NCBI GenBank assembly: GCA_002731275.1
Contig: PCBK01000148.1
Span: 1 to 52,330 of the forward strand
Reading direction: 5' to 3'
Length of the DNA: 52,330 nt
DNA from: Deltaproteobacteria bacterium
Lineage (GTDB): Bacteria > Myxococcota_C > UBA6777
A program made the position numbers and the translations under genes. Below are positions 23,170 to 36,594 of this stretch, piece after piece; within the stretch, counting starts at the first letter, position 1, and every line of letters starts with the position of its first letter. Under the pieces are notes generated by a model, which saw only the letters and a list, made by a program, of their open reading frames with translations, had not been told where the DNA came from and did not search any database.

Positions 23170-23393
23170 GAACTTCTCCATATCATTGATTTTTTCGACG
23201 TAGACGTGTTTTGATGCTGGGAAATGTGGTATGTTGATGAGAGGTTGTCAATTGAACAGGGAAAAGTTTCCTGTGGTTCTTGTCATATATACGGTTTTTT
23301 GTTTGACTTGGGAGGAGCCTGTAGATATCGTAACGGCATTTGTGATGGTTCTATGTGCAAGTGAATCTGTTTGTGTGGTTTGCTTGGGGCGAG

Positions 23394-25430
23394 ATGGTTG
23401 TTTTGGAAAAGGTTGCTTGTTTTTATTGTCATGCTGAGTACCCAAAGGGGACTGAGGAGTGCACGATGTGTGGTGCTTCTTTGGATCCCGGTGAGTGGAC
23501 GACGTTGGATCCCTCTGTCGGACAGGTGTCTCCTTTTTTCAAAGCGAACAACAAGCAAGCTGAGTTGGAGTTCGATGGACTCGACGAGGAGGGGGATTTT
23601 CCTACGATGATCGCCTCTCCAGGAGATGGCGAGCGGCTGTTGCGGCCCAAGAAAAAAACCAAAGAGACAACCCCCACACCGACCATCGATCATTCAGCAA
23701 CGCGACCGTCTCCTGCCTTCCGCATGGCGCCGCCTGAAGAAGCCGATGTCATCGTCGCTGATGTGGACTTACTCTCCGAAGAAGAGATGTTGCCAAGTAA
23801 GCCCAAATCTTCGGGATACAAAGATCCACTGCTCGGACAACGAATCGGCAATTACGAAGTGGTCGAGAAGATCGGGCGAGGTGGTTTTGGTTCTGTGTAC
23901 AAAGCACAGCAGATCTTCCTCGATGAGTCCTTCGCGATCAAGTTTCTCCACTCCGAACAAGACGTTGAATCAGAGAACACCAAGCGTTTTATACGGGAAG
24001 CCAGGGCGCTCGCACAGCTTCGCCATCCTTATATCGTACAGATCCTGGATTTTGGTCTGCTCGAAGAGCTTGGTTTCTACCTCGTGATGGAGCTGCTGCA
24101 GGGCAAAAGTCTCGCAGATACACTCAAAGAAGAGACGTTATCACACGAACGCATCCTCACACTCGTCAAACAATTGTGTCAGGTGCTCGACTTTGTCCAC
24201 AACAAATCCGTCCTACACCGCGACCTCAAACCCGACAACATCTACCTGACACGTTCTTTGCAAGGTCAAGAAGAGATCAAGTTGTTTGACTTTGGTATCG
24301 CCGCGCTGCGCCAGGAGACGGGAGACATTACACAAACTGGCGAATATGTCGGGACTGTCCGCTACGCCGCGCCTGAGCAGTTGGACAAAGATCTGCCGAT
24401 GGACGGTCGCGCCGATCTCTATGCCCTCGGTGTCATCGTCTACCAAATGCTTTGTGGTACAGAGCCATTTCACGACTTTGACGGTATCTCCTTGCTCTAC
24501 GCCAAACTGAATGAATCCGTGCGCTTGCTCTCTGATCTGGCCCCTGAGCGTCGTTGGGCACCTGAGCTGGAGTTGTTTTTGCAGACATCGCTCGCGATTC
24601 ATCCTGATAAACGCCCTGCAAACGCGCTGGCTTTTTACGATGCTTTCGAGAAGGCGATGAAGGCGCAGCAGACGTTCGAAGGGGAACCTCCTAATCTGCA
24701 AGATGTGACGACTGACCTGGAGAGTATCACTGCACGCTCTTCGCTCTCCGCGCTCCCCATCCACTTCCAAGACGGAGAAGACGAAGGCGACGCGACCTTC
24801 ATCGCCAATGATGACTTCTTGAAGGAGCTTGAAGAGGCGAGAGCGTCGCTCGAAAAGAGCCAGAAGATCCAGCAGATTGAAGAGGATGGGTTTAAAACCT
24901 ACGACAATCTCAGCGCATTCGAGACGACGCCTGAGATCCCCACACTCAAGGAACGACTCAGCAAGCGACCTAAGCTGAGTATGATCAAGGACGCACAAGG
25001 ACAACTCAGAGAGGTCTTCTCGTGGGGGATCTTTGAAAGTCCACCTCAACAGGCTGGTTTTTGGGCGCAGTGGAAGAAAGGTGTCCTTGAAGCCCAAGGG
25101 GACGTCTGTCATGTTCTCGCTGTCGACACATTGTTGTTAGGAGATATCGACGAGCTCGTTGGATTTTGCTGCAACGATCGCTTTGATATCACTCACTGTA
25201 CCAATCCCGCCGAAGGAATCTACCAACTCTACCAAGCCCCTCCTGCGCTTATGTTGATCCGTGTTGCTGGGAACAGTCTGCGCTGGATTCCGCTCTTTGG
25301 TGAGATGCAGCGCTCTGTACGACTCCGGAAAGTACCCATGCTGCTCTTTATCGAAGATGAAGACATGCAAGCTGAGTTTGACAACGCCATCCGTCCATTT
25401 TCTCACATCCTGTTTCGCAAGATATTTTGA
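23394..25430 (+). CDS. Ser/Thr protein kinase with N-terminal zinc ribbon and receiver-like C-terminus
   Basis: 678 residues from the ATG at 23394; a GTG at 23355 is an alternative. A zinc ribbon opens the protein (Cys9, 12, 23 and 26: CFYC...CTMC). After a disordered acidic/Pro-Thr linker the kinase domain runs about 148-410: GRGGFGSV at 161-168, Lys183, HRDLKPDN from 275, DFG from 299, and APEQL. All catalytic residues are present. No transmembrane segment. The last ~120 residues look like a degenerate receiver domain: VLAVDTLLLGD at the first strand and VPMLLFIEDED later, but without the usual phospho-Asp block (inference from pattern). The next gene starts 15 bp downstream. Confidence 0.88.
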   Translation: MVVLEKVACFYCHAEYPKGTEECTMCGASLDPGEWTTLDPSVGQVSPFFKANNKQAELEFDGLDEEGDFPTMIASPGDGERLLRPKKKTKETTPTPTIDHSATRPSPAFRMAPPEEADVIVADVDLLSEEEMLPSKPKSSGYKDPLLGQRIGNYEVVEKIGRGGFGSVYKAQQIFLDESFAIKFLHSEQDVESENTKRFIREARALAQLRHPYIVQILDFGLLEELGFYLVMELLQGKSLADTLKEETLSHERILTLVKQLCQVLDFVHNKSVLHRDLKPDNIYLTRSLQGQEEIKLFDFGIAALRQETGDITQTGEYVGTVRYAAPEQLDKDLPMDGRADLYALGVIVYQMLCGTEPFHDFDGISLLYAKLNESVRLLSDLAPERRWAPELELFLQTSLAIHPDKRPANALAFYDAFEKAMKAQQTFEGEPPNLQDVTTDLESITARSSLSALPIHFQDGEDEGDATFIANDDFLKELEEARASLEKSQKIQQIEEDGFKTYDNLSAFETTPEIPTLKERLSKRPKLSMIKDAQGQLREVFSWGIFESPPQQAGFWAQWKKGVLEAQGDVCHVLAVDTLLLGDIDELVGFCCNDRFDITHCTNPAEGIYQLYQAPPALMLIRVAGNSLRWIPLFGEMQRSVRLRKVPMLLFIEDEDMQAEFDNAIRPFSHILFRKIF

Positions 25431-28421: not shown

Positions 28422-28448
28422 GTAAGCAACACAATTGGAGTGATATAC

Positions 28449-28844
28449 ATGTCAACAAGTCAGGCGAAAGCCACGATGTTGTATCTCGATGTTGCGAGAA
28501 ATCTATTTCAGTGGGGTTACGTTGAGGAGGCCCGTCACTATTGGCGTACAGTGTTGGAGCTCGATCCTTCTAAAACAGAAGCGCTTCGGTATCTCCAGCA
28601 CACCCGTGGGCGGGTTGTTCCAAAACGGGTCTCAGGGCTGACCTACTCGATATCCAACCATTCATCCAAAAATTTTCGTCCAAAATCCGAGGTCTTGGAG
28701 TTCTCCAAACAACAAAAGCGCGAGATGCAGTACAGCTTCTCAAGAGCCCTTGAGGTGAGCGCTGAAAAACCAACTCGCAAGACACAAACACAACCCCACC
28801 TGCAGAAAGTGATCGCACCACAGACCCTACTTGAAGACGACTAG
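28449..28844 (+). CDS. small TPR-like protein
   Basis: 131 residues from the ATG at 28449, with TTGGAG 8 nt upstream. One TPR-like helix pair is visible (ATMLYLDVARNLFQWGYVEE, ARHYWRTVLELDPSKTEALRYL). The rest is basic, Ser/Gln-rich and probably disordered. No signal or membrane segment. Function unknown. It converges on the end of the sulfur-relay operon 52 bp away. Confidence 0.7.
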   Translation: MSTSQAKATMLYLDVARNLFQWGYVEEARHYWRTVLELDPSKTEALRYLQHTRGRVVPKRVSGLTYSISNHSSKNFRPKSEVLEFSKQQKREMQYSFSRALEVSAEKPTRKTQTQPHLQKVIAPQTLLEDD

Positions 28845-28896: not shown

Positions 28897-29274
28897 TCAG
28901 GTGAGCTTTCCAAGCAGGAGGCTGGTGGCTTTGGGGAGGACTTGATTGAGCTCTTCTTGGCTGATTGTATCTTCGCTGGTGATGTCTTTACGAAGAATAT
29001 CTTCAAGTACAAGATCGACATCGGGGACACGGCCTGCTTGTGAGCGGCAGGCGTGGAGATCACATCGACGTGAGCAACCTGCGAGGCCGATGAGCTGTGT
29101 CGCGCGTTTAACCTTCTCTACGGGCTCGGGGAGGCCTGCGAGCAGAGGTGTCAAGGACAGGACATCGACATCTTCATCGATATGCTCTTGTAGTTGTTGA
29201 ATCACCTTCGCTGTGAGCTGGCCACGGGCGCTGAGTCCATTGCAGGTGATGAGGACTACGCGATCATCCATCAT
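28897..29274 (-). CDS. DGC-domain putative zinc-binding protein (last gene of the sulfur-relay operon)
   Basis: 125 residues. The DGC-domain pattern is CNGLSARGQL at the start (Cys11), a middle Leu-rich part, and LIGLAGCSRRCDLHAC (Cys67, Cys71, Cys76). Family members have conserved cysteines thought to bind zinc, and no established activity. AAGGA precedes the ATG. Its gene is 27 bp behind a DsrE gene and closes a run of eight. Related DGC modules occur in two other proteins of the same operon. Soluble; a cysteine-based carrier or regulatory role is inferred. Confidence 0.82.
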   Translation of the reverse strand: MMDDRVVLITCNGLSARGQLTAKVIQQLQEHIDEDVDVLSLTPLLAGLPEPVEKVKRATQLIGLAGCSRRCDLHACRSQAGRVPDVDLVLEDILRKDITSEDTISQEELNQVLPKATSLLLGKLT

Positions 29275-29301
29275 TTCGCATCCTTCTTTTGTGGAAGGGG
29301 G

Positions 29302-29694
29302 TTAAAAGGAGAGGCACTTTCTCTCCATGATCAACGACGCAAGTGTCGTGAGACCTGCTGAGGTCACGCCTTCACGGAAGGGACCAAGGGTCGCCATCAC
29401 GTTCTCTTTGTAACCCGACGTTAGGCTATCGACACACGTCGCGCAGACGAAGAGTTCGCCACCTGCTTCCTGGAACAAATCGATGTAGTTTTCAAGGGGG
29501 TCAAAACCTTGGATATGTACGCGCTGTACAGGGAAGTTAAACGCCCAAATGGCTGACTGAGAGTTGAGATAGATCGCGACCTCACTGCCCATCGCCTGGA
29601 GGCTCACAGCGAGCGCAAACGCCAACGTCGCACGACTCCCACCATCTTCTTGGCCTCGTGTCAACACGAGGATATGTTTATGTCCTTGTTTCAT
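29302..29694 (-). CDS. DsrE-family protein (paralogue 2)
   Basis: 130 residues from the ATG at 29694; a GTG at 29715 is an alternative. The DsrE fold begins HILVLTRGQEDGGSRATLAFALAV-type (strand, then helix), and the CxxC motif in ELFVCATCV lies at Cys84/Cys87. DsrE-like proteins carry persulfides in sulfur relays such as DsrEFH and TusBCD. The cysteines fall at exactly the same residue numbers as in the neighbouring paralogue at 29736, which argues for a recent duplication. Cytoplasmic. Confidence 0.87.
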   Translation of the reverse strand: MKQGHKHILVLTRGQEDGGSRATLAFALAVSLQAMGSEVAIYLNSQSAIWAFNFPVQRVHIQGFDPLENYIDLFQEAGGELFVCATCVDSLTSGYKENVMATLGPFREGVTSAGLTTLASLIMERKCLSF

Positions 29695-29735
29695 CAAACA
29701 ACCTTTTGTGTGCACGACCCATGCGGTCGCTCGTC

Positions 29736-30128
29736 TTAAAATACAGTCGCTTCGCCGTCAAACATCTTCTCTGCGATCGTCGCGAGGCCGACATACCTGG
29801 AGTTTGGGCGGATCTTTTCTTGATAAAATTCTTCTTCCAGTCCAGGAAGATAACAGTACGCCTCAATGCAGGGAGAGCAGATCAAAAGCTCTCCATCGCT
29901 CTCGATAAACGAATCGATAAACTCTTCGAGGCTTGGCTCACCTGGCAAAATGAGGTCTTTCGCGGTCCCCTGAAATCCCCAGCGCGTTGCCGCGAGGGTC
30001 AAAAAAACAGAGGTTTTTTGCTGCATGGCCTGCATCGTCACTGCGAGCTTAAAGGCGAGCATCGCTGCGTGCCCACCGTCTTCGCGACCTTGTGTCAGGA
30101 TGATGACATGTTCTTTGTATTTGCTCAT
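29736..30128 (-). CDS. DsrE-family protein (paralogue 1)
   Basis: 130 residues. The N-terminus HVIILTQGREDGGHAAMLA closely resembles the downstream paralogue. CxxC at Cys84/Cys87 (LLICSPCIEAYC) with an extra Cys92 provides candidate persulfide sites. Soluble DsrE/TusD-like fold. The start is separated by one base from the stop of the DsrE2-type gene, so translation is probably coupled. Confidence 0.88.
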   Translation of the reverse strand: MSKYKEHVIILTQGREDGGHAAMLAFKLAVTMQAMQQKTSVFLTLAATRWGFQGTAKDLILPGEPSLEEFIDSFIESDGELLICSPCIEAYCYLPGLEEEFYQEKIRPNSRYVGLATIAEKMFDGEATVF

Positions 30129-30129
30129 C

Positions 30130-30699
30130 TCAGATCACCAAGAACATCTTGGATTGCAACGCTGAGCCCATGCAGGACGCGACACCACCATACTTTGCGT
30201 TGGGGAGGGCGAGAAGTTCGTCACTTTTGACACCCATAATCTCCATGGTCATCGAACAAATCGTAAACTCGACCTCGGACTCTACAGCCATATCCATCAG
30301 CTCAGGGAGTGTTGCGATGTTGTTGTTTTTCATAAACATCTTCATCATCAACGCGCCCATGCCACCGAAGTTCATCTTGGAGAGGCCGAGGGAGTCTGGA
30401 CCTTTTGGCATCATCATGCCCATCATCTTCTCCATCATCGATTTTTTTCCTTCGTCGACTTCGCTCGGTGGGTCCATCGAGGGTTGGTCCCCCTGACGTT
30501 TGAGCAAGTTGATCCCCCACAGCGCAAAAAAGATGTTGACCTCCATTCCCATAGAGCGCGCTGACATCGCAAGCATAAAAGCGAGAAAGACGCGATCAAA
30601 GTCATCGCTCGCGAGCAAGATCGTCATCTTGTTGTCGTTGGGCTGTGTGGACGCATCACACGTTTGCCCTGTGTCTTGTGGCGTTGGATTTTGTTGCAT
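30130..30699 (-). CDS. DsrE/DsrF/DrsH-like (DsrE2-type) protein
   Basis: 189 residues. After a ~24-residue Gln/Thr/Asn-rich lead, KMTILLASDDFDRVFLAFMLA starts the fold. The DsrE2 hallmark is the Met/Gly block KMNFGGMGALMMKMFMK, LPELMDMA, and FTICSMTMEIMG with the conserved Cys148; another Cys is at 176. The Met-rich insert is typical of the family, often linked to sulfur oxidation and to TusA and rhodanese genes. It follows the TusA-repeat gene by 32 bp. No clear membrane segment. Confidence 0.88.
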   Translation of the reverse strand: MQQNPTPQDTGQTCDASTQPNDNKMTILLASDDFDRVFLAFMLAMSARSMGMEVNIFFALWGINLLKRQGDQPSMDPPSEVDEGKKSMMEKMMGMMMPKGPDSLGLSKMNFGGMGALMMKMFMKNNNIATLPELMDMAVESEVEFTICSMTMEIMGVKSDELLALPNAKYGGVASCMGSALQSKMFLVI

Positions 30700-30731
30700 T
30701 TCTGTGCTCCTTTTGTGTTGTGCTCACTCTT

Positions 30732-33206
30732 TCAGGGTTTTCTTCGGAGGACGACGCGAAAGCTCCCACCACTCTCTTCCTCTTCCTCAACATCGAAAGG
30801 ATGGATCTCACACCAGGCTTTCAAATCGGCAGGGAAGGCCGGGTCGTCTGCTATAACCTCCAAAGATCGATTGGGATGTTTGTGGCTGGCTTGGGACAGC
30901 CTTACAATGGGCAATGGACAACGAAGCCCTCTGTAATCCAGCGCGACGAGGTCACCTTCGCTCAAAGAAGGTAAACCTGCCAATGACTCCTCTGGAAGCT
31001 CCAACTCCCAAACTGACGGTGAATATGTAATGGTCTCTTCTTTCTGCTCCGGAGGAGAATCCACTGCTTTTGTGTCTTCTATGAGTGCGGTGAAACCGAG
31101 CGCATCTTCTATGACTTCAATAATTTTAAAGTCTCGGTGTTCACACCACGCTTTGATATCCGCGGGGAAAGCCGGGTCATCTGCGATAACACGAAAGCGC
31201 GAGCCTGTGTGTTGTTGCACTGCTTTTGTCAACTTGACGATCGGCATAGGACATTTGAGCCCCGTAAAATCAAGCGTTTCAAATGAGATGGGGGGAGCAG
31301 GGGAGGAGGTCGAAACGTGGCTCTCAGAGGGCGTGTCAGCCCGACGCAACATATTCCCCGTGTGTGGGAGTCTGAGCGCCGAATAGCTCTCTGTGACCTG
31401 CCTCTTCTCCGTACTCGCGAGGACTGCGGTCCTTGGACGTGGTGAGGGCGTCTGCGCTGCTTGCTTGTTGGCTGTTACCGAACGTTCGAGCTGCGCATTG
31501 CTCACGATCTTTGCAGAGAACGGAGCAGTTGGCTCGATGGATTGGATCGTGAAGTTCTGTTGTGTACACCACGCCTCAAGATCAGCCGGAAACGCAGGGT
31601 CGTCTGCGAGGACTTCGTAGGATGGGTGGTCTGACTGCTTGAGCGCCTTGGTCAACCTAAGGATCGGCATCGGGCAACGTAGACCTCTAAAGTCCAAAAC
31701 CTCTACGCTCATAAGCGGCTCAGGGGTCAACACCTCTTCTGCAAAGAACTCACCTGACGATTCGAGGATGGACTCGATAAAGCTCGGCTCTGCAAAGTCC
31801 GAATCGGAGAAAGCATCCGAGATGTTTGATGTGTCGATGGAGCCCGATTGTTCCAGAGATTCAGTGTTGCCAAAATGGCTCGCTAGATCGAGCTGATTGG
31901 AGAACTCTATCTCATCGGAGAATTCAGCTTCGTCGGAGAACAACTCTTCCTCAGGTGTGCTTTTTTTGATCAGGACAGAGGCTTTCTGTGAGTCGGCCTG
32001 TGCATCAAACGAAAGGATCTGGTGTCCGCTTTGTTTGCTCCAGTTTTCCAGATCGGTCTGGAATTGTGGATCATTTGTTTCGATGCGGATGATGCCAGAG
32101 GTCTCATGGCGGGAGAGTGCTTTTTGCAGCTTGGCGATCTGCATTGGAGAGCGCAACGCTCGGTAGTCGAGGACTTCGTGGATGGGATATTGCTGCTGTG
32201 CTGTTTCGAGGGGGATGATGGGCCGAGCTTTGGGCTGTGTCTGGGCGGGCGGTGCCACAGGGAAGGCTTCTTTGGGTAGAGAGATGATGCCAGAGGTCGG
32301 TCTGGGTTGTGGCAACGTCAACAACGCTCTGTGGATCTTGTCCTGTTTGGTGGAGAGCCATTCAAATGTCGCGTCTGTTTGGCCACACCACGCTTCAAGG
32401 TCAGATGGAAAGGCCGGGTCGTCAGCCTGAATTTCGAGTACGCCCCCATTCATCTGCTTGGCTTTTTTCGAGAGCTTGATGATAGGCATGGGACAGCTTA
32501 GCCCAACGCAGTCGAGGGTTTCCGTCATTGGCAGCGTGGCAGGAGGGGGGATCACCTGTTCAAAGACAATCTCGTCGCTGCTCTCTGCTGGTAGCTCTGC
32601 GAGCAGCTCGGGAAGCGCTAGGGAGACGAGCGCGCGGGTGACAGCACCTGGTTCGAGGGATTCGAGTGTGTGCCCTTTTTGAGCACACCAGCTTTGTACA
32701 TCTGCCATAAATGTAGGATCTGTGGCCTCTACCTCGATCTGGCTTCCCGGTGGGAGATTGGCCGCGAAGCTCGAAAGTTTGGTGATCGGCATGGGGCAGC
32801 GAAGGCCTTTGCAGTCGAGCTGGTAGAGCTCTACTGGTTGGAAGGCTTGCCTTCTCAGTTGTCCCATCTTCTGGTGGACGTCACTCCGGATGTCTTCGTA
32901 GGTGCTGTCTGGGGCGATATTGAAGATGGCCTGTGGACGTTTGATCGTCTGAAGCACCTTCTGTGCGCAACCTTCAGTACATCCTTCAACGGCGATGATT
33001 GCGTGCGCTAGTTTGACGCGCCGCCGTGCGATCGTCTCAGCGCTCCCTAGCTGTCCAACATCGTAATGCTCGCCGACAGGTGAGAGATGGGACATGAGCG
33101 CATGTTTGTTCTCTTTTGAGATACATGCGTCACAAGTCACGACTGCGATCTCTTCTAATAAATCCACGGGGATGCCCAGGACATCCTGGATGTCCAAATG
33201 TGTCAT
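30732..33206 (-). CDS. DGC module fused to six TusA (SirA-like) sulfur-carrier domains
   Basis: 824 residues, cytoplasmic. Residues 19-97 form a DGC-type module with CDAC (Cys25, Cys28) and CTEGC (Cys76, Cys80). Six TusA domains follow at about 127-197, 228-298, 343-413, 500-568, 641-710 and 752-822, joined by Pro/Ser/Gln-rich or acidic linkers. Five carry the sulfur-accepting Cys of the CPMP/CPLP motif (137, 238, 511, 652, 763) and a second Cys in a W-C motif 36-37 residues later (174, 274, 547, 688, 799). Repeat 3 has Ser at both places (353, 390). TusA is normally a single ~80-residue domain. The start overlaps the previous stop (ATGA). Confidence 0.93.
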   Translation of the reverse strand: MTHLDIQDVLGIPVDLLEEIAVVTCDACISKENKHALMSHLSPVGEHYDVGQLGSAETIARRRVKLAHAIIAVEGCTEGCAQKVLQTIKRPQAIFNIAPDSTYEDIRSDVHQKMGQLRRQAFQPVELYQLDCKGLRCPMPITKLSSFAANLPPGSQIEVEATDPTFMADVQSWCAQKGHTLESLEPGAVTRALVSLALPELLAELPAESSDEIVFEQVIPPPATLPMTETLDCVGLSCPMPIIKLSKKAKQMNGGVLEIQADDPAFPSDLEAWCGQTDATFEWLSTKQDKIHRALLTLPQPRPTSGIISLPKEAFPVAPPAQTQPKARPIIPLETAQQQYPIHEVLDYRALRSPMQIAKLQKALSRHETSGIIRIETNDPQFQTDLENWSKQSGHQILSFDAQADSQKASVLIKKSTPEEELFSDEAEFSDEIEFSNQLDLASHFGNTESLEQSGSIDTSNISDAFSDSDFAEPSFIESILESSGEFFAEEVLTPEPLMSVEVLDFRGLRCPMPILRLTKALKQSDHPSYEVLADDPAFPADLEAWCTQQNFTIQSIEPTAPFSAKIVSNAQLERSVTANKQAAQTPSPRPRTAVLASTEKRQVTESYSALRLPHTGNMLRRADTPSESHVSTSSPAPPISFETLDFTGLKCPMPIVKLTKAVQQHTGSRFRVIADDPAFPADIKAWCEHRDFKIIEVIEDALGFTALIEDTKAVDSPPEQKEETITYSPSVWELELPEESLAGLPSLSEGDLVALDYRGLRCPLPIVRLSQASHKHPNRSLEVIADDPAFPADLKAWCEIHPFDVEEEEESGGSFRVVLRRKP

Positions 33207-33691
33207 GAGCCTGTGCTTCCTATTTGAAGAATGAGAAAGAGTTCGTCGGAGCGCAGGCGACCTTCTCGTTGTTCGCGGATCGTGACCTTATGTCCGGCGT
33301 GTTGTAGTGCGCCTTCGAGGAACAAAGAGAGGAAAGGGTAGACAGGTTGTTTATTCTTGATGCGTGGGGCACCGACGTAACGAGAGGCCATGCACCGGAG
33401 GGCCAACATCAGGCATTGTGTCTCTGACTGCTCTGTAGGTTCGAGGACACGGAGCAGCCCAATGGTCGAGAGGAGCTGAGAGAGCTGCTCAAGACATGGG
33501 TAGAGGGCGCCTGTGATGTTGTTTTGGGTGGCGAGTTGCTGTCCCCAAGAGCGGACCAACTGCTCATACACTTGGGGTGACAGTGAATCTTCGTCGATCT
33601 GTTGTTGCATCGTTTGCAAGAAGGAGAGGAAGACCTCTGCTCCTCCAAAAGACCAGACTGGAGATGATCTGTGCTCTCTTTGGCTATTCAC
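33203..33691 (-). CDS. small protein of unknown function in the sulfur-relay operon
   Basis: 162 residues from a GTG that overlaps the stop of the upstream gene (GTGA). Its own stop overlaps the TusA-repeat start (ATGA), so all three are translationally coupled. Helical N-terminal half. The C-terminal half ends YPFLSLFLEGALQHAGHKV followed by beta-like IREQREGRLRSDELFLILQI, which is reminiscent of small-molecule-binding V4R or haem-NO-binding-like folds (weak inference). Two Cys, no zinc motif. Confidence 0.7.
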   Translation of the reverse strand: MNSQREHRSSPVWSFGGAEVFLSFLQTMQQQIDEDSLSPQVYEQLVRSWGQQLATQNNITGALYPCLEQLSQLLSTIGLLRVLEPTEQSETQCLMLALRCMASRYVGAPRIKNKQPVYPFLSLFLEGALQHAGHKVTIREQREGRLRSDELFLILQIGSTGS

Positions 33692-35055
33692 TGCTTTGCT
33701 CCGTTGGTGAGTGATGTGACTGAAACTGGTACACAGACAGACTCTACGCGTTTGCTTCTCTTACGAAGAGGGAGTCTTTTACAGATGGTTCCGATGCGGC
33801 AGCCTGTACGAGGGAATCGCTTTTTGTCGCACTTGGAGAGGCAAAGTCCGTAACGAAATGATGGTAGTTGAGGGAGTGTTTTGCGGATACTCGAAAGGCC
33901 GATGCAATAGGAAGCTGTGTAGGCTGCGCCTTTTTGATCCACGCAAAATTTGTCACAGAATCGCGAGCAAAGTCCGCCGTATGGTTGTTTGAGGCAGATC
34001 GCGTCGTTACCAGGACATTGCTCGGCACCTTTACAAAAACCACCTGTCCAGCCCTTGTTGATGCGTTGTTGTGCGCGCAAGCGTGCCTTGGAGATGAGGG
34101 GTTTTTTGCGCTTGGTGGGTTTTGTTCTTCGTCTCGGTGTTGGCTTCGGGCGCTTTCTTACAGGTGTGGGGCTTTGTTTTGCCTTCTCCTGTTTTCCCTT
34201 CTCTGGCGAATCTGTTCCCTTTTTCGGTGCGTTCTCCTCAACAGGGGGCACTCTGGAGGGGGTCTTTGGAGGAGTCGTCTTTGCTGCCTTTGTGTTCGAT
34301 GGAGCCACATCACCACGTGCTTTCATGGGATCATTTTTAGATGGGGCAGGGCTTCTTTTGGGTGTTTGTGTGTGGTTTGCCTGTGCCTCGTTGGGTGCTT
34401 GTTGTTTGCTTGGTGGGATGAACCACCAGGCGAGTCCACCGAGTAAGAGCGCAACAAAGAGCACGAGTGGCACACGCGAGGATGTTTTCTTGCTGCCAGA
34501 GAAACGACCATATTGTGTATTTTTTTGACTAAAGTGCCCGCGTTTAGGTGTTTGGCTTACTTTTGTTGGGGGCTTTGAGGGAGGCGTGGGGGGCGTCTGA
34601 ATGAACGACTTACGGGACGCTTGCGCGGCTGGAGGTGGTTGTAGTGAGGACAACGGCCCCACGACATGTTCGCTCAATTGCTTGATCATATGCTCAAGCT
34701 CGGTCATTTGCTGTGCAAGAGACTCTGCAGGGTCCAACTGGAGACGTTCGGAACGAGCTGGTAAGGCTGTCAGAAGGCGCCCCGCGCAGTTCTCTGCGCA
34801 CGCGGAGACTGCAAGTCGTGTATTGGCGTGTTTGTAACGCAATTGGGCGTGGGCGTCTTCACCGGTCACGAGAGGGGGTAGTGAGAGCACACAGGTTTTG
34901 TGTGGGTATCGGTCCTCCGCAAATTGACGCACATGTTCGGCAAAGTCGGGGTGCACTGAGCAACCATCGCAGGGAACGAGCACGATCTCTTCTGTGGCTG
35001 AAGGAGAGATCTGTAAGAGGGACCATCGATTCGAGAGGCTTGGGCTTTGGTTCAT
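33688..35055 (-). CDS. membrane-tethered DGC-type protein with periplasmic cysteine-rich end
   Basis: 455 residues. N-terminal DGC-type module at about 22-100 with CDGC (Cys29, Cys32) and CAENC (Cys86, Cys90), the same spacing as in the TusA-repeat protein. A Pro/Ser/Lys linker leads to one transmembrane helix (LVLFVALLLGGLAWWFI, near residue 200). Then come about 130 Lys/Pro/Thr-rich residues and a C-terminal ~110-residue domain with about ten cysteines (GFCKGAEQC, CSRFCDKFC). By topology the DGC module is cytoplasmic and the cysteine-rich domain periplasmic. Second gene of the operon, 48 bp after the kinase gene. Confidence 0.85.
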   Translation of the reverse strand: MNQSPSLSNRWSLLQISPSATEEIVLVPCDGCSVHPDFAEHVRQFAEDRYPHKTCVLSLPPLVTGEDAHAQLRYKHANTRLAVSACAENCAGRLLTALPARSERLQLDPAESLAQQMTELEHMIKQLSEHVVGPLSSLQPPPAAQASRKSFIQTPPTPPSKPPTKVSQTPKRGHFSQKNTQYGRFSGSKKTSSRVPLVLFVALLLGGLAWWFIPPSKQQAPNEAQANHTQTPKRSPAPSKNDPMKARGDVAPSNTKAAKTTPPKTPSRVPPVEENAPKKGTDSPEKGKQEKAKQSPTPVRKRPKPTPRRRTKPTKRKKPLISKARLRAQQRINKGWTGGFCKGAEQCPGNDAICLKQPYGGLCSRFCDKFCVDQKGAAYTASYCIGLSSIRKTLPQLPSFRYGLCLSKCDKKRFPRTGCRIGTICKRLPLRKRSKRVESVCVPVSVTSLTNGAKQ

Positions 35056-35103
35056 TAAAGTGTGCCTGTCTTTTAGTCGTGGACAGAGCGTGTCAAAGAC
35101 ACG

Positions 35104-36594
35104 TTACTTGCTGGCTTTTTTGTTTTGAAACTCTTCGAGCATACGGACGTTCGCTTGTGCGAGTGCGATGATCTGTTGCTTGAGCGCTTCTTCTTTTTTC
35201 TCGGTGTGTAGGATCTGCTCTCGAAGGAAGTCGCTCTCTCGCCTCTCTCGGCTCTGCTGTTTATCGACAGTCTGGATCAGTGTGATGTACAGTTCCTCTA
35301 CGGAGATGGGGGCGCGAATAAACTTCGTCAACCCACATAGTTCAACGGACATCTCCAAGATTTCTGAACTGCTGTGGTCCATCACCAAGATCTTCATAAT
35401 CTCGGGATAATCCTGTAACGCCTTAAGAAACGGATGTTCCATCGCGACGAAGAGACCACCAAATAGCACCGCGAAGGGTTTCTTTTTCCCTCGGCTGAGC
35501 TGTGCGAGCGCGATATCTTGCTCTTGGCGTTTGGTGAGCACCTTGAAGTCGAGGCTCCCGTTGTACATCGTCATGTCCTGAAGTTTTCTTTTGATATCCG
35601 CTGGAAAGATCGGATCATTTTCTTGCTTGAGGATGTACACAAGAGGTCTTGGTGGTTGGTTGATCTGGACGAAGTTACGTAGAGAGATACTCTCTCGCTC
35701 CGCTGGGGATGTGTAGGCTTTGATGTACGTGCTGGTATAGCGACGCATTTTTTCGTCGGAGTACTTTGTTAAAAAGGCCTCCAAACCATCGTGAAACTCC
35801 CGCGCGCTTTGATAACGAGTGTCGAGGTCTTTGGTCAGGGCTTTCATGATGATGTGTTCAAGATCTGGATGGATGCCTGGTAAAAACTCTCGAATAGGTG
35901 GAATGGTTGAGTTTTGGACGAGTTTGAGGGTGGACATCAAGTTGTCATTTTTAAACAACCGAACGCCAGTCAGTCCTTCGTAGAGGATAATACCGACTGA
36001 GTAAACGTCAGATCTTCGGTCGACTCGAAGCCCCGCACTCTGTTCGGGAGACATATAACCTAGCTTACCTTTTAAGATCCCAGGTGCAGTCTGTTTGGAG
36101 TGCTCTCGAGCCTTCGCGAGACCAAAGTCTGTGAGCTTGGCGACCCCTTGTTGACTGAGCAAAATGTTGTCTGGGCTGATGTCTCTATGCACGAGGTGGA
36201 GGGGGTGTCCAGTCGGTGAGGTCATCTCGTGAACATAGTCAAGTCCACGTAGCACTTGAAGGATCGTCCACAATAAGATTGTCGGTGGAAGCAGCTGACC
36301 GTCATTGAGCAAGTGAGCGAGCGTGACGCCATTCACAAACTCCATTACGAGGTAGTACTCACCGTCTTCTTTGGAGAGGTCATAGACAGATACGATATTG
36401 GGGTGCTCAAAAAGGCTGGCGATTTTGGCTTCGCTGATGAGCGCCGAAATCAACGCCTCATCTTGCGAAAAAGCAGGATGAAGTTTTTTGATCACAAAGG
36501 GCTTCTCAAATCCCTCTACACCACATTGTGTGGTCAGATAGGTTAAGCCCATCCCACCCGCACCAAGCTTCCGCTGGATCTGGTATTTCTTCAT
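35104..36594 (-). CDS. Ser/Thr protein kinase with receiver-like and coiled-coil C-terminus (first gene of sulfur-relay operon)
   Basis: 496 residues, no transmembrane helix. Kinase domain about 4-290: GAGGMGLTYL at 11-20, Lys36, HRDISPDN at 136-143, DFG at 156-158 and SPEQ. The HRDISPDN form is common in myxobacterial kinases. Residues ~325-450 resemble a degenerate receiver domain (beta strands at FAVLFGGLFVAM and IMKILVMDHSSSEIL, then KFIRAPIS where a receiver has its conserved Lys-Pro). A predicted coiled coil closes the protein. Position as the first gene suggests it controls, or is controlled by, the sulfur-carrier proteins downstream (inference). Confidence 0.9.
   Translation of the reverse strand: MKKYQIQRKLGAGGMGLTYLTTQCGVEGFEKPFVIKKLHPAFSQDEALISALISEAKIASLFEHPNIVSVYDLSKEDGEYYLVMEFVNGVTLAHLLNDGQLLPPTILLWTILQVLRGLDYVHEMTSPTGHPLHLVHRDISPDNILLSQQGVAKLTDFGLAKAREHSKQTAPGILKGKLGYMSPEQSAGLRVDRRSDVYSVGIILYEGLTGVRLFKNDNLMSTLKLVQNSTIPPIREFLPGIHPDLEHIIMKALTKDLDTRYQSAREFHDGLEAFLTKYSDEKMRRYTSTYIKAYTSPAERESISLRNFVQINQPPRPLVYILKQENDPIFPADIKRKLQDMTMYNGSLDFKVLTKRQEQDIALAQLSRGKKKPFAVLFGGLFVAMEHPFLKALQDYPEIMKILVMDHSSSEILEMSVELCGLTKFIRAPISVEELYITLIQTVDKQQSRERRESDFLREQILHTEKKEEALKQQIIALAQANVRMLEEFQNKKASK

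Follow-up and report, generated by a model that had tools for sequence, protein, structure and literature searches.

An eight-gene cluster in a 52,330-nucleotide stretch of Deltaproteobacteria bacterium DNA (GenBank assembly GCA_002731275.1, contig PCBK01000148.1; the whole stretch is referred to here as the window) encodes a Ser/Thr protein kinase together with DGC, TusA, DsrE2 and DsrE proteins. We propose that this cluster is a sulfane-sulfur relay serving as a signal-transduction input, of which the window holds an elaborate Ser/Thr-kinase version; our confidence in the proposal is evenly balanced. We read the relay as an input because TusA-DsrE2 genes, with or without DsrE, recur beside signalling enzymes, many of which share a coil motif.

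In the proposed scheme, two DsrE proteins and a DsrE2 protein would capture sulfane sulfur, in persulfide or thiosulfonate form, and pass it to and from cysteines in a multi-TusA protein. The latter would act as a string of carrier domains, one of which, a conserved Ser domain, would not be loadable. The DGC modules and a V4R-like protein may read the loading state, which would be passed to the Ser/Thr kinase, probably via its C-terminal coil, and a membrane-spanning DGC-like, Cys-rich protein may connect the relay to the cell envelope. We infer sulfur loading, its direction, docking on the coil, control of the kinase and the kinase targets.

The genes, with profile scores in bits and E-values, are as follows:
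g1, 35104..36594 (-), Ser/Thr protein kinase of 496 amino acids (Pfam Pkinase, 144.8 bits, 4.2e-42)
g2, 33688..35055 (-), DGC-like N-terminal module, hydrophobic segment and Cys-rich C-terminal domain (DGC, sub-threshold, 14.6 bits)
g3, 33203..33691 (-), small protein with a predicted V4R/TRAPP (Bet3)/XylR-sensor-type fold (AlphaFold2 model with Foldseek and VIA comparison)
g4, 30732..33206 (-), DGC-like N-terminus followed by six TusA domains (TusA, 309 bits over six stretches, total 3.9e-94)
g5, 30130..30699 (-), DsrE2-type sulfur carrier (PF13686, 137.6 bits, 4.6e-40)
g6, 29736..30128 (-), DsrE-family protein with a CSPC motif (PF02635, 23.4 bits, 6.9e-5)
g7, 29302..29694 (-), DsrE-family protein with a CxxC motif (PF02635, 37.2 bits, 3.8e-9)
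g8, 28897..29274 (-), stand-alone DGC-domain protein (PF08859, 46.2 bits, 5.3e-12)

All eight open reading frames (ORFs) are read on the minus strand, from 36594 to 28897. An earlier sequence-only reading had described a tightly spaced same-strand set, and every ORF of that set was confirmed, with gaps of 1 to 48 bp (g1/g2, 48 bp; g4/g5, 32 bp; g5/g6, 1 bp; g7/g8, 27 bp) and two 4-bp overlaps, at g2/g3 (GTGA) and g3/g4 (ATGA). The g6/g7 gap is about 41 bp when the g7 start is placed at the ATG at 29694; the ORF list has a GTG at 29715. A sequence scan was uninformative on co-transcription: promoter-like sites equalled the shuffled expectation and terminator-like sites lay within ~1.2 standard deviations of it.

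Conservation of the cluster

The 10.75-Mb assembly (G000), of which the window forms contig 137, is 94.65% complete. The identical eight-gene order of G000 was found in G002 (L045), in G004 (L046) and in G001, where it is divided between two contigs (L047 and L048) that overlap by 252 bp at 95.6% within the TusA gene. The four species belong to one family, G001, G002 and G004 being three other species in two further genera. Best BLAST identities to the window proteins were 28 to 62%. Flanking genes differ among the cluster-bearing species, which have only generic kinase similarity in common there. Since three other species repeat the order amid different neighbours, chance was ruled out as its explanation. 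Comparison of G002 with G004 showed purifying selection on all eight genes, with ratios of nonsynonymous to synonymous substitution rates (dN/dS) from 0.008 (DsrE2) to 0.34 (the membrane DGC-like protein). Conserved synteny, which the sequence-only reading had made its main prediction and check, holds within the family in these four species, and the exact eight-gene version was seen only there. The V4R-like gene was found in none of 189 genomes of the phylum to which G199 (Myxococcaceae) belongs, a set with no positive control.

A second kinase of the g1 type adjoins the cluster in G002 (L045, 13605-17036) and G004 (L046, 8502-11846); its C-terminal end in G002 is DUF4388. A membrane protein, with an NnrU domain in G002, lies between it and the cluster. 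Two more apparent Ser/Thr kinase genes lie in the window at 1522-2718 and 23355-25430, which indicates that kinases are common in this genome. A short plus-strand ORF at 28440-28844, convergent with the cluster end, has weak TPR similarity and was not seen at the related loci. Relatives of the window contig (G000:C137) outside the family carry only the rank "same domain", which points to a sparsely sequenced lineage.

Properties of the encoded proteins

The g1 kinase has intact HRDISPDN and DFG motifs. Its score of 239 bits was below the 450-bit cut-off of the NCBIfam PASTA Stk1/PknB equivalog, while the Pkinase domain itself passed. The C-terminal module of g1 had no Pfam match, and its very end (ALAQANVR) is the first half of the ALAxANxR coil. 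The orthologues in G001, G002 and G004 are 38-44% identical to the window kinase, are longer, and carry the full coil.

The g2 protein consists, in order, of a CxxC...CxxxC module, a Pro-rich linker, a single hydrophobic segment, a Lys-rich linker and a Cys-rich C-terminal domain, and is predicted from this topology to span the membrane. Sixteen Cys residues are invariant in the four species, 4 in the N-terminal module (the CxxC...CxxxC set, kept in all four) and 12 in the C-terminal part, on either side of the hydrophobic stretch. DGC had been assigned to three genes. With the curated PF08859 cut-off of 27 bits, only g8 qualified; g2 and g4 (19.6 bits) fell below it and are called DGC-like here. 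In g8, C11, C67, C71 and C76 are invariant in the four species, and the AlphaFold2 model had a predicted local distance difference test score (pLDDT) of 86. An attempt to identify the DGC fold by structure search gave no Foldseek match at E<=1e-3; the best VIA Z, 8.8 to peptidyl-tRNA hydrolase, reflects a generic alpha/beta fold and was not used. We found no solved relative of the DGC domain, and no paper describing it in the open-access literature.

No Pfam sequence family matched g3. Its AlphaFold2 model (pLDDT 81, predicted template-modelling score 0.77) resembles TRAPP Bet3, XylR/MopR aromatic-sensor and V4R proteins by Foldseek, with VIA Z of 12.9 to 10.3 (12.9 over 135 residues to Bet3, 11.8 to the MopR sensor). 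One Cys, C100, is invariant.

The TusA score of g4 is far above the PF01206 cut-off of 28.6 bits, and the catalytic CPxP Cys is present in five of its six domains. In the sixth the motif is SPMQ, with Ser in place of the catalytic Cys; this Ser domain is kept in all four species, with Cys in none. The number of TusA domains per orthologue varies from 3 to 6 by species, the window protein having extra Cys copies, and three domains correspond across species: a Cys domain, the Ser domain after it and the C-terminal Cys domain. The 10.75-Mb window genome has no TusA domain other than the six of g4.

The sequence-only reading had listed three DsrE-superfamily proteins. The superfamily was right, and the set is now corrected to one DsrE2 (g5) and two DsrE proteins (g6 and g7). 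g5 scored well above the PF13686 cut-off of 25 bits, grouped among DsrE2 in the tree and has invariant C148 and C176; against the stricter NCBIfam SulfCarrDsrE2 model it reached 57.9 of the 210 bits required. Both g6 and g7 were above the PF02635 cut-off of 22.7 bits and retain CxxC in all four species; C84, C87 and C92 of g6 are invariant.

Signalling genes beside TusA-DsrE2 operons

A search for TusA relatives revealed other loci that join these carriers to signalling genes: TusA, DsrE2, DsrE and a hybrid histidine kinase in an Actinomycetota metagenome-assembled genome (MAG; L059); DsrE, TusA, DsrE2 and two hybrid kinases in a Deltaproteobacteria MAG (L063); DsrE2, TusA and a hybrid kinase in Planctomycetota MAGs (L061 and L062); and TusA, DsrE and a GGDEF protein in G001 itself (L049). 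A DsrE2 survey of ~190 genomes, mostly one per lineage, covered ~37 loci and added L136 (TusA, DsrE2, kinase) and L135 (TusA, DsrE2, GAF kinase). In a DsrE2 tree of 75 sequences, 16 of them signal-linked, the best tree required six label changes against a shuffled mean of 14.7, and well-supported branches forced at least 3. Signal-linked sequences are thus not one clade, and the linkage therefore has more than one origin or was repeatedly lost. This recurrence favours a functional reason for it.

A second type of signal-linked locus is represented in two distant genomes by L135 (4667-7751) and L222 (3567-6548). Here TusA is encoded with a hybrid histidine kinase of GAF-like type and with a DsrE2 that carries an unusual insertion; the two DsrE2 proteins are sisters with full support.

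The coil common to several of the TusA/DsrE2-linked signalling proteins has the form LAxANxRAAELxAELExKxEEL. The Ser/Thr kinases of G001, G002 and G004 have a single copy each, the GGDEF protein has two, and the L136 kinase has three in tandem. A 38-residue model was built from some signal-linked proteins; these match by construction and were not counted. Phylum-level searches, with matches counted at E<=1e-3, gave ten independent new ones. Five (G454, G552, G649, G819 and G828), including all three with E<1e-4, are in TusA-DsrE2 operons; the other five (G524, G135, G136, G614 and G634) have no TusA/DsrE2 nearby. The G135 match is apparently the same as one in G630. The chance of five in ten is ~6e-11 if 0.3% of genes lie near such an operon and ~2e-8 if 1% do, both background rates being assumed. 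Every coil match in G193, G195, G196, G001, G002, G004 and G103 was in a gene of a TusA/DsrE operon or one adjoining it. The sole match in G195 (E 1.1e-3), a kinase beside DsrE2-TusA, is supportive only, as the genome was picked for that locus.

L168 (1357-1818) and L169 (1312-1839), from two genomes of the G199 phylum, each encode a small protein in which a conserved Cys-ribbon module (PICMHCHxIRD...FSHxxCPxC) comes after one or two coil motifs. The Cys module has no convincing Pfam match, and in both genomes the gene closes a TusA-DsrE2-DsrE operon.

The sequence-only reading had tied the output of the relay to kinase activity. The association is strengthened by the recurrence of TusA-DsrE2-DsrE beside histidine kinases and GGDEF proteins and by the power of the coil to predict such operons; the further step to kinase control is the part that we infer. 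A general signalling class is a tentative extension, which we hold a little less readily than the proposal for the cluster itself: a TusA-DsrE2-DsrE relay would dock on the shared coil and control Ser/Thr kinases, histidine kinases and GGDEF proteins, the window being the most elaborate case, with DGC modules as its persulfide readers.

Several observations weigh against a relay acting as a signalling input. The case is built from sequence and predicted structure. All four cluster-bearing species come from one family, and the cluster did not show in G003, a member of that family in the genus of G001 whose assembly is 86% complete. Signal-linked DsrE2 loci are a minority (~2 of 37 across phyla and 4 of ~20 in the G199 phylum), and most surveyed loci adjoin metabolic genes. 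Given how common histidine kinases are, some of these adjacencies will be coincidental, and adjacency alone is therefore weak evidence. The GAF-kinase loci L135 and L222 have no coil, and neither DGC modules nor the V4R-like protein were seen at the other signal-linked loci examined. In the window kinase itself the coil is truncated, and G000 had no match to the coil model at E<=1e-3.

Alternative functions

The chief alternative, which we consider unlikely at about half the weight of a signalling input, is a sulfur-metabolic relay for assimilation, detoxification or dissimilatory thiosulfate/polysulfide oxidation, whose pathway the kinase merely regulates, as in kinase-rich large genomes. Most TusA-DsrE2 loci elsewhere do occur with sulfide:quinone reductase-like, rhodanese/beta-lactamase-fold or Fe-S proteins, and other kinases are encoded in the window. 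However, Pfam identified neither a rhodanese or Hdr subunit nor any oxidising or reducing enzyme in the conserved block, and elsewhere TusA-DsrE2 operons are directly linked with genes for histidine kinases or GGDEF proteins. Among the eight products there was no Pfam match to rhodanese or Hdr/lipoate genes, for which a genome-wide search was not made. DsrC/TusE (PF04358) had no match in three of the four cluster genomes (G000, G002 and G004; assemblies 86-95% complete), which extends, for this partner, the earlier remark that the usual partners are missing from the window. Because the window genome has no such match, the classical TusBCD-TusE and DsrEFH-DsrC routes are disfavoured for the cluster; the result argues against them within the limits of assembly completeness. 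In G001 and G003 there is a DsrC match, at another locus and next to a second DsrE2.

At that locus (L102, 5551-8315, in G003; L103, 5590-8434, in G001), a sulfide:quinone reductase-like flavoprotein is encoded with the DsrC-match protein and DsrE2.

The multi-TusA protein could instead be a store of biosynthetic sulfur, with the kinase sensing stress. Several TusA domains per chain would suit a store. However, an 824-residue chain could hold at most 5 sulfurs, only two Cys domains are present in two species, and the conserved Ser domain suggests docking rather than storage; we regard this alternative as improbable. Sulfur supply for tRNA thiolation or cofactors via TusA/TusBCD-like proteins is more improbable still. 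E. coli MnmA receives its sulfur from TusA and DsrE-fold proteins, and the window genome has no TusA gene besides g4; however, the same three genomes had no TusE/DsrC match, and the kinase, DGC and V4R-like partners would be left unexplained. A YedF-type role in selenium metabolism, the least probable of all, was suggested by a score of 90.5 bits against the YedF model and was rejected, since this is under the 110-bit cut-off and the TusA model scored well above its own (169.3 vs 78).

Comparison with known systems

Among the closest known counterparts of the proposed signalling relay are the rhd-tusA-dsrE2 and dsrE3A-dsrE2B-tusA clusters of sulfur oxidisers such as Allochromatium and Metallosphaera cuprina (PMC4175335), which likewise combine TusA, DsrE2 and DsrE with conserved catalytic Cys. 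They adjoin Hdr/lipoamide or Dsr oxidation genes, whereas the window block has no oxidation gene and adds a kinase, DGC modules, a V4R-like protein and a multi-domain TusA. Transfer of sulfur groups between DsrE3A and TusA is established biochemically, and Metallosphaera TusA C18S, which is not loadable, parallels the natural Ser domain of g4 (PMC4175335). The YTD cluster of sulfur-disproportionating bacteria (YedE, TusA, DsrE and two conserved hypothetical proteins) also groups TusA and DsrE with functionally uncharacterised proteins; however, the partners differ, the cluster lacking the YedE transporter and YTD a counterpart of the kinase (PMC9751629). The sulfane-sulfur-responsive regulators SoxR/sHdrR with SoxT1B in Hyphomicrobium share the use of cytoplasmic sulfane sulfur as a signal, and TusA has been discussed as a possible donor to the repressor; the output there is an ArsR-type repressor, not a kinase, with no DsrE2-linked signalling enzyme (PMC11582611). 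The DsrEFH-DsrC and TusBCD-TusE systems resemble the cluster in having DsrE-fold carriers that exchange sulfur with TusA, a property proposed for the cluster too. The cluster differs from them in that its genome has no DsrC/TusE match and in having DsrE2 with two DsrE proteins in place of the EFH/BCD set. The sequence-only reading had called the system undescribed, and our search of open-access papers turned up no account of a TusA/DsrE2 kinase system.

Implications

If the proposal is true, kinases fed by a carrier-protein relay would represent a type of input new to bacterial signalling; to our knowledge, the known sulfane-sulfur sensing systems act by direct chemistry on a repressor or sensor. 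The DGC domain would gain its first functional context, and the coil would provide a simple sequence signature for finding and testing further cases.

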